Shown piece after piece: positions 55,794 through 56,849 of a stretch of 64,000 nt of DNA (positions are counted from its first letter, which is position 1; every line of letters begins with the position of its first letter). The notes below the pieces were generated by a model. It was not told the origin of the DNA. It saw only the letters and a program-made list of their open reading frames with translations, and searched no databases. The stretch is from the NCBI GenBank assembly GCA_030066625.1, contig JASJBG010000001.1, positions 28,381 to 92,380 on the forward strand. Direction: 5' to 3'. This DNA comes from Woeseiaceae bacterium (GTDB lineage Bacteria; Pseudomonadota; Gammaproteobacteria; Steroidobacterales; Woeseiaceae). The position numbers and the translations under genes are program-made.

Positions 55794-56849
55794 TCAGGCC
55801 GGTGACAGCACCCCGTGTTCCACGTGGAACACGGCGGGATCTGCCGGCAGCCGAAGAGTGTCCGCCTCCAGCGAGGTCACGACGACCTGGGAGCCTAGTC
55901 CGGCTATTCCGGCCGTGAGACGGCCCAGCGAATCCCTGTCCAGTTCGGCAGCCGGATCGTCGACCAACAGCAGCAACGGCCGTTCCAGCGCTGTCTGTAC
56001 TATCTCCGTCGCAGCCAGGATCATCGAACAACCGAGCAGTTTTTGTTGACCCCGGGACACCAGCCGCTTCGCCTGCCGATCATCGTAAACGAGCCGTATG
56101 TCGCCGCGGTGCGGACCTACCTGCGTGCTGCCCTGCTGCTGATCCCGCTCCAGGCTGCCGCGCACCGCCTCCTCCAGCGAGAGGTCTACCGACCATCCCG
56201 GCCGATACTCGAATCGAACTTCTCCGCCCAGTAACTCACTCGCCTGCGCTTCCAGGGCAGGCTCGCTGATACCGAGCACGTGGCGCCGCGCCGCGTCGAG
56301 TTCCGTGGCACGTGCCAGGAATTCTGACGTCCAGGCGTCCACGCCCGCCCCCGCCTTTAACGCCGCATTTCGCTGTTTCAACGCCCGTCGGAAGCGCCGC
56401 CAGAGCGCCAGAAACCCGTGTTCCACGTGGAACGCCACCCCGTCGAGGAACCGCCGGCGCTGTTCCGGGCCGCCGCTTACGAGATCGTGAATATCGGGGT
56501 CTATGACCTGGACCGGCAGTATTTCCGCGGCCTCCGCGGCTCCACCGCCAGGATCCCCGTCGATTCGGACCGTAAGCCCTTCACGACCGTTACGCATTCC
56601 CAGGCTGTGCTGGACGCCGTCGTGCGCTACACGCCCATGTAGCACGAAGCTGTCAGCCCCATGACGAACCAGGCTTGTCACTGGCGCCCCGCGAAACGAC
56701 TTCGCCCGGCCCAGATACGCCAACGCCTCCAGCAAGCTCGTCTTGCCGGAGGCGTTGGCCCCGTAGATCAGGTTGTACTGTGGATCCGGCTCGAAACTGA
56801 CGTGTTCCAGGCAGCGAAAGTTGTCCGCCGTAAATCGCTCGATGGGCAC
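55794..56849 (-). CDS. recF: DNA replication and repair protein RecF
   Basis: 351 residues. SMC-like ATPase: Walker [21 protein letters not shown] (Ala where most RecF have Gly), signature [17 protein letters not shown], Walker [15 protein letters not shown]. It loads RecA at gaps with RecO and RecR. It sits in the conserved dnaA-dnaN-recF-gyrB order, 17 bp after dnaN. Two parS-type palindromes are embedded in the coding sequence and are both translated as FHVEH (near residue 142 and at the C-terminus). Confidence 0.96.
55816..55831. promoter_or_regulatory. parS site (ParB binding), perfect palindrome
   Basis: TGTTCCACGTGGAACA is a perfect 16-bp palindrome that matches the chromosomal parS consensus of gammaproteobacteria. 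Three further flanking base pairs on each side are also symmetric (55813-55834). It lies inside the last codons of recF. Confidence 0.85.
56419..56434. promoter_or_regulatory. parS site (ParB binding), one mismatch
   Basis: TGTTCCACGTGGAACG differs from the perfect site only at the last base. It is inside recF, 603 bp from the first site. Confidence 0.78.

Follow-up and report, generated by a model that had tools for sequence, protein, structure and literature searches.

The recF gene in the window (the whole stretch of 64 kb of DNA analysed here) carries two 16-bp palindromes centred on CACGTG, which raises the question of whether they form a chromosomal parS centromere or are a by-product of a conserved RecF peptide. 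Two parS sites had been noted in this gene by a sequence-only reading, and both 16-mers were located exactly at those positions (Table 1), matching the consensus TGTTYCACGTGRAACA at 16/16 bases in site 2 and 15/16 bases in site 1; both also encode FHVEH in the RecF frame, as that reading had claimed. No further parS match with up to three mismatches was found within the window, for which shuffled sequence gave a mean of 0.27 matches at the same threshold. A pattern search of the genome contigs with the 15-mer, allowing two mismatches (3,876,287 bases in 236 contigs), returned beyond the recF pair only a few near matches, on other contigs and with two mismatches. The recF pair is therefore the only set of strong parS copies in the available 3.88-Mb assembly, which is fragmented and 89.5% complete, so that additional parS sites could be missing from it.

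Table 1. The two predicted parS sites, their host gene and the neighbouring features (coordinates of the window).
Feature	Coordinates	Strand	Description
gyrB, downstream of recF	53200..55629	-	start placed near 55629; assigned by sequence and gene order
recF, hosts both sites	55794..56849	-	351 aa, GTG start; TIGR00611, E 1.1e-90, 304 bits vs cut-off 172
predicted parS site 2	55816..55831	.	TGTTCCACGTGGAACA, perfect palindrome; codes (V)FHVE(H), RecF residues 341-345; sequence equals P. aeruginosa parS2
predicted parS site 1	56419..56434	.	TGTTCCACGTGGAACG, one outer mismatch; codes (A)FHVE(H), RecF residues 140-144; P. aeruginosa parS1 position
dnaN	56867..57970	-	TIGR00663, E 1e-108
likely oriC region, dnaN-dnaA gap	58000..58180	.	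placed by two DnaA boxes and gene order
dnaA	58170..59612	-	TIGR00362, E 4.3e-182

The DnaA boxes TTATACACA (58028-58036, minus strand) and TTATCCACA (58161-58169, plus strand) point to a likely origin in the dnaN-dnaA gap. Measured to these boxes, the two sites are 1.6-2.4 kb away, near oriC as for chromosomal parS and in agreement with the earlier estimate of about 1.5-2.4 kb. The cognate parA and parB, which had been placed outside the window, were found beside gidB (gidB-parA-parB) on contig C133 of the host genome; the host parB matches TIGR00180 (E 1.7e-57) and its product matches the Caulobacter ParB chain 6t1f (E 1e-52). In relatives that have both genes on one contig (e.g., G002, G005, G011, G025 and G029), parB is ~25-37 kb from recF, and the absence of parAB from the window fits with the window stopping at the contig end. 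A minus-strand ORF at 62064-63989, directly after yidC, encodes a product with a stretch rich in proline at its N terminus and with segments resembling repeats, and the contig ends there; mnmE is the usual gene after yidC.

In the host's family, the exact 15-mer is present in 67 of 107 genomes and the pattern GTTYCACGTGRAAC in 94, with exactly two copies in 88 of them. The pairs among the matches listed are spaced by 603-612 bp, and the reversed pattern, used as a control, matched in only 2 of the 107 genomes. In the genome G001 (C19:15873-15933), 47 bp separate a third parS from the second site of the recF region. The comparison was extended to RecF from 100 gammaproteobacterial genomes, one per family, where 90 genomes have the canonical parS core (TTYCACGTGRAA) in at least one of the two positions: 83 have it at site 1, 78 at site 2 and 71 at both sites. 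In the last group the sites are 600-669 bp apart, and many of the recF sites are of the TGTTTCACGTGAAACA form. Across the class, the C-terminal tail of RecF can hardly be aligned, yet FHVE or FHVK is found there, as well as internally, in most sequences. This class-wide alignment rules out that FHVEH is a lineage-specific insertion, as the sequence-only reading had considered. The same reading had described site 2 as lying in the last codons of recF, where drift would be cheap; the position was correct, but the site has not drifted freely, being conserved like the internal one. Outside the class, recF was compared in 22 genomes belonging to further classes of the phylum, and a canonical site was found in none (0/22), which argues against an origin before the Gammaproteobacteria. 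Because some of these other-class tails have FxVxxG, the parS palindrome may have arisen within an existing protein frame.

The alternative that survives best is that the FHVEH peptide itself is conserved for RecF structure or function and that the palindrome merely follows from it. The partial retention of F, V and the following G in E. coli (MFTVEKG), together with the FxVxxG tails mentioned above, indicates that the protein constrains part of the motif; however, codon choice is much more restricted than the amino acids require. Among genes with FHV[EK], the codons CAC-GTG-[GA]AA are found together in 83/85 at site 1 and 78/81 at site 2, whereas codon use in these genes predicts 5.5 and 5.7, respectively. 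These counts ignore phylogeny, and the remaining positions of the gene, which share that phylogeny, are their control. Relatives with FHVEH in non-palindromic codons, which the earlier reading had named as evidence against a centromere, are thus not what these genes present. The Glu codon in the parS sites is always GAA (134/134), and a Val or Leu preceding the motif is encoded by NTG in 109/109 cases vs ~39 expected. The flanks vary mostly like free codon positions around fixed bases (V, L or M as NTG before the motif, H or Q as CAN after it), which also argues against a constraint on the peptide only. When synonymous bias was scanned over 123 conserved positions of RecF, the top eight included seven parS codons (139, 141-143 and 342-344); serine 120 is also high (AGT 37/74), which is attributed to serine having two separate codon blocks and not to a site.

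Within each site, substitutions covary across the palindrome. With phylogeny likewise ignored, the change from Glu to Lys (GAA to AAA) at site 1 is found only with the change of Phe from TTC to TTT (12/12, Fisher 2e-5), and at site 2 the association of Lys with TTT is weaker (14/20, p 0.01). The codon use and the synonymous scan reveal conservation of the DNA of the recF sites beyond what the protein needs, and protein conservation alone is rejected as a sufficient cause; we regard it as very unlikely. The earlier proposal of a double constraint on the same bases, by protein and by centromere, is borne out by codon fixation beyond the amino acids at both sites, and these patterns show the recF pair as a putative ancient centromere overlaid on the protein code.

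The identity of the DNA element is addressed by comparison with Pseudomonas aeruginosa, in which parS1 (TGTTCCACGTGGAACC) and parS2 (TGTTCCACGTGGAACA) are ParB sites (PMC4368675) located inside recF (PMC5521831, PMC3909081). The recF genes compared from other Pseudomonas spp. carry these published parS1 and parS2 sequences at codons aligned to the pair of the window. The pair of the window is therefore orthologous to parS1/parS2 rather than a new type of site, with the same two recF positions, similar sequences, the same scale of distance to oriC and the same arrangement, in which the strong site, a perfect palindrome, is near the recF 3' end and the slightly weaker internal one has a single outer mismatch. 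As a difference, P. aeruginosa has the further strong sites parS3 and parS4, which are intergenic near oriC, whereas two strong sites are found here in the available assembly. Any one of the four strong parS sites suffices for segregation in P. aeruginosa (PMC4368675), and genes with intragenic parS are unrepressed at a normal ParB level but repressed by ParB excess (PMC5521831).

A 16-bp palindrome centred on CACGTG could also be an operator, and its reader is not identifiable by sequence alone, so that binding by another conserved protein, such as a transcription factor or a nucleoid protein, has to be weighed. This is still less probable than a peptide-only constraint. Against it stand P. 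aeruginosa, whose matching sequences at the equivalent recF positions have been defined as ParB sites by experiment, and the distribution of the sites, whose absence follows the lineages without a chromosomal ParB. The par genes have been reported missing from the chromosomes of Enterobacteriaceae and Pasteurellaceae (PMC7022226). All 11 recF genes of Enterobacteriaceae, Pasteurellaceae and Zophobihabitans lack the canonical core at both sites, so that at least one core is present in 0/11 of these vs 65/70 other recF genes (p 4e-10, with relatedness ignored); E. coli recF has GCTTTCACAACGAACC and TGTTTACCGTGGAAAA at the two positions. A ParB scan of nine genomes (two of Citrobacter, and Kluyvera, Klebsiella, Pectobacterium, Yersinia, Pantoea, Pasteurella and Zophobihabitans) gave none or weaker matches, the best being E 5.8e-39 in Zophobihabitans, and the matches in Pseudomonas, Alteromonas, Vibrio, Vreelandella and Marinomonas are of ~1e-57. 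The loss of FHVE where ParB is gone and RecF remains also argues against conservation of the peptide for its own sake. Similarly, G219 has no ParB and has lost both recF sites; G220, which has no ParB match yet retains one near-canonical recF site, is the exception to the rule that the site is missing where chromosomal ParB is missing.

The reverse situation is also found, since Marinomonas, Vibrio, G155 and a few other genomes have a good ParB and have lost one or both canonical recF sites; the recF sites are therefore not indispensable to ParABS in general, and centromeres can move. In G155 (recF L062), with a strong ParB and the recF sites lost, two parS-like sites lie ~2 kb apart elsewhere in the genome (C1:1919149 and 1921266), and its centromere appears to have moved. 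The recF of G190 (L126) has TGTTTCATATGAAACA at both sites, encoding FHMKH and FHMKQ, a perfect palindrome with the altered centre CATATG, which suggests a coordinated shift of parS, perhaps together with ParB specificity. Altered cores are also present in the recF genes L063, L137 and L106 of G128 (TTCCACATGGAA at both sites), G135 (TTCTACGTAGAA) and G109 (TTTCACATGAAA with TTTCATGTGAAA), which are candidates for natural shifts of ParB-parS specificity. A change in the ParB recognition helix matched to the altered cores (CATATG in G190, CACATG in G128 and TACGTA in G135) was sought and dropped, as no residue tracked them clearly; a difference in the GRSR motif looked promising with 20 ParBs, and with 80 similar differences were found to accompany canonical sites as well.

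The shortness of the motif is all that speaks for a chance likeness to parS, which is refuted by positional conservation and has practically no probability left, given an expectation of ~0.0007 sites per 64 kb and 0.04 per genome (up to one mismatch, uniform base composition), the presence of two sites in one gene and a pair common to most of the family and class. Here it is proposed, with a probability of roughly 0.94, that the two palindromes are a chromosomal parS centromere on which ParB from the gidB-parA-parB locus would load and spread, with ParA separating the origins. The parS reading made from the sequence is supported by the match in sequence and position to Pseudomonas parS1/parS2, the presence of parAB in the genome and the retention across the class. 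For this organism, the binding of ParB, its loading as a clamp and the segregation are inferred from P. aeruginosa and from general knowledge of ParABS. In the proposed mechanism, ParB, encoded elsewhere in the genome, would load as a CTP clamp at both recF sites and spread across the dnaN-recF-gyrB region beside oriC, after which ParA would move the ParB-parS complex and the sister origins would separate. As the sites are in the RecF reading frame, the 12-16 bases that bind ParB would also code for the RecF residues [V/L/M]-F-H-V-E-[H/Q/P].

It also seems likely, although less firmly than the parS assignment, that a centromere in two parts has stayed at two fixed recF codon positions ever since the gammaproteobacterial ancestor, and that H, E and H/Q at both places were imposed by the centromere rather than by RecF function. 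The imposed protein sequence would relax upon the loss of ParABS and would change in palindromic steps as the site drifts, as when E becomes K together with a TTC codon becoming TTT, or in FHMK with CATATG at both sites of G190.

The 16-bp ParB palindrome is of the type common to the chromosomal parS of Bacillus subtilis and Caulobacter. Caulobacter differs in that its native parS cluster is elsewhere, on the left arm, and its recF-gyrB region came up in a screen only as a hot spot for insertions. The parS1 sites of Vibrio cholerae chromosome I have the ParABS logic in common with the pair of the window; as a difference, the natural sites are labelled 65 kb along the chromosome in a figure legend. 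In two Vibrionales recF genes, site 1 is lost and the core of site 2 is changed.

The literature searched, which leaves many subscription papers outside, speaks of parS in recF only to give its location in P. aeruginosa, and no paper found there presents the sites as locked in position across a whole class; the novelty of extending them to the class is not certain. If true, this would be a clear case of a centromere overlaid on the protein code throughout the history of a bacterial class, for which the lineages without ParABS would constitute a natural knock-out series. RecF residues that are apparently conserved for the protein may be centromere DNA, which bears on the reading of RecF conservation as function, and the recF pair would be a ready predictor of the centromere in uncultured gammaproteobacteria.
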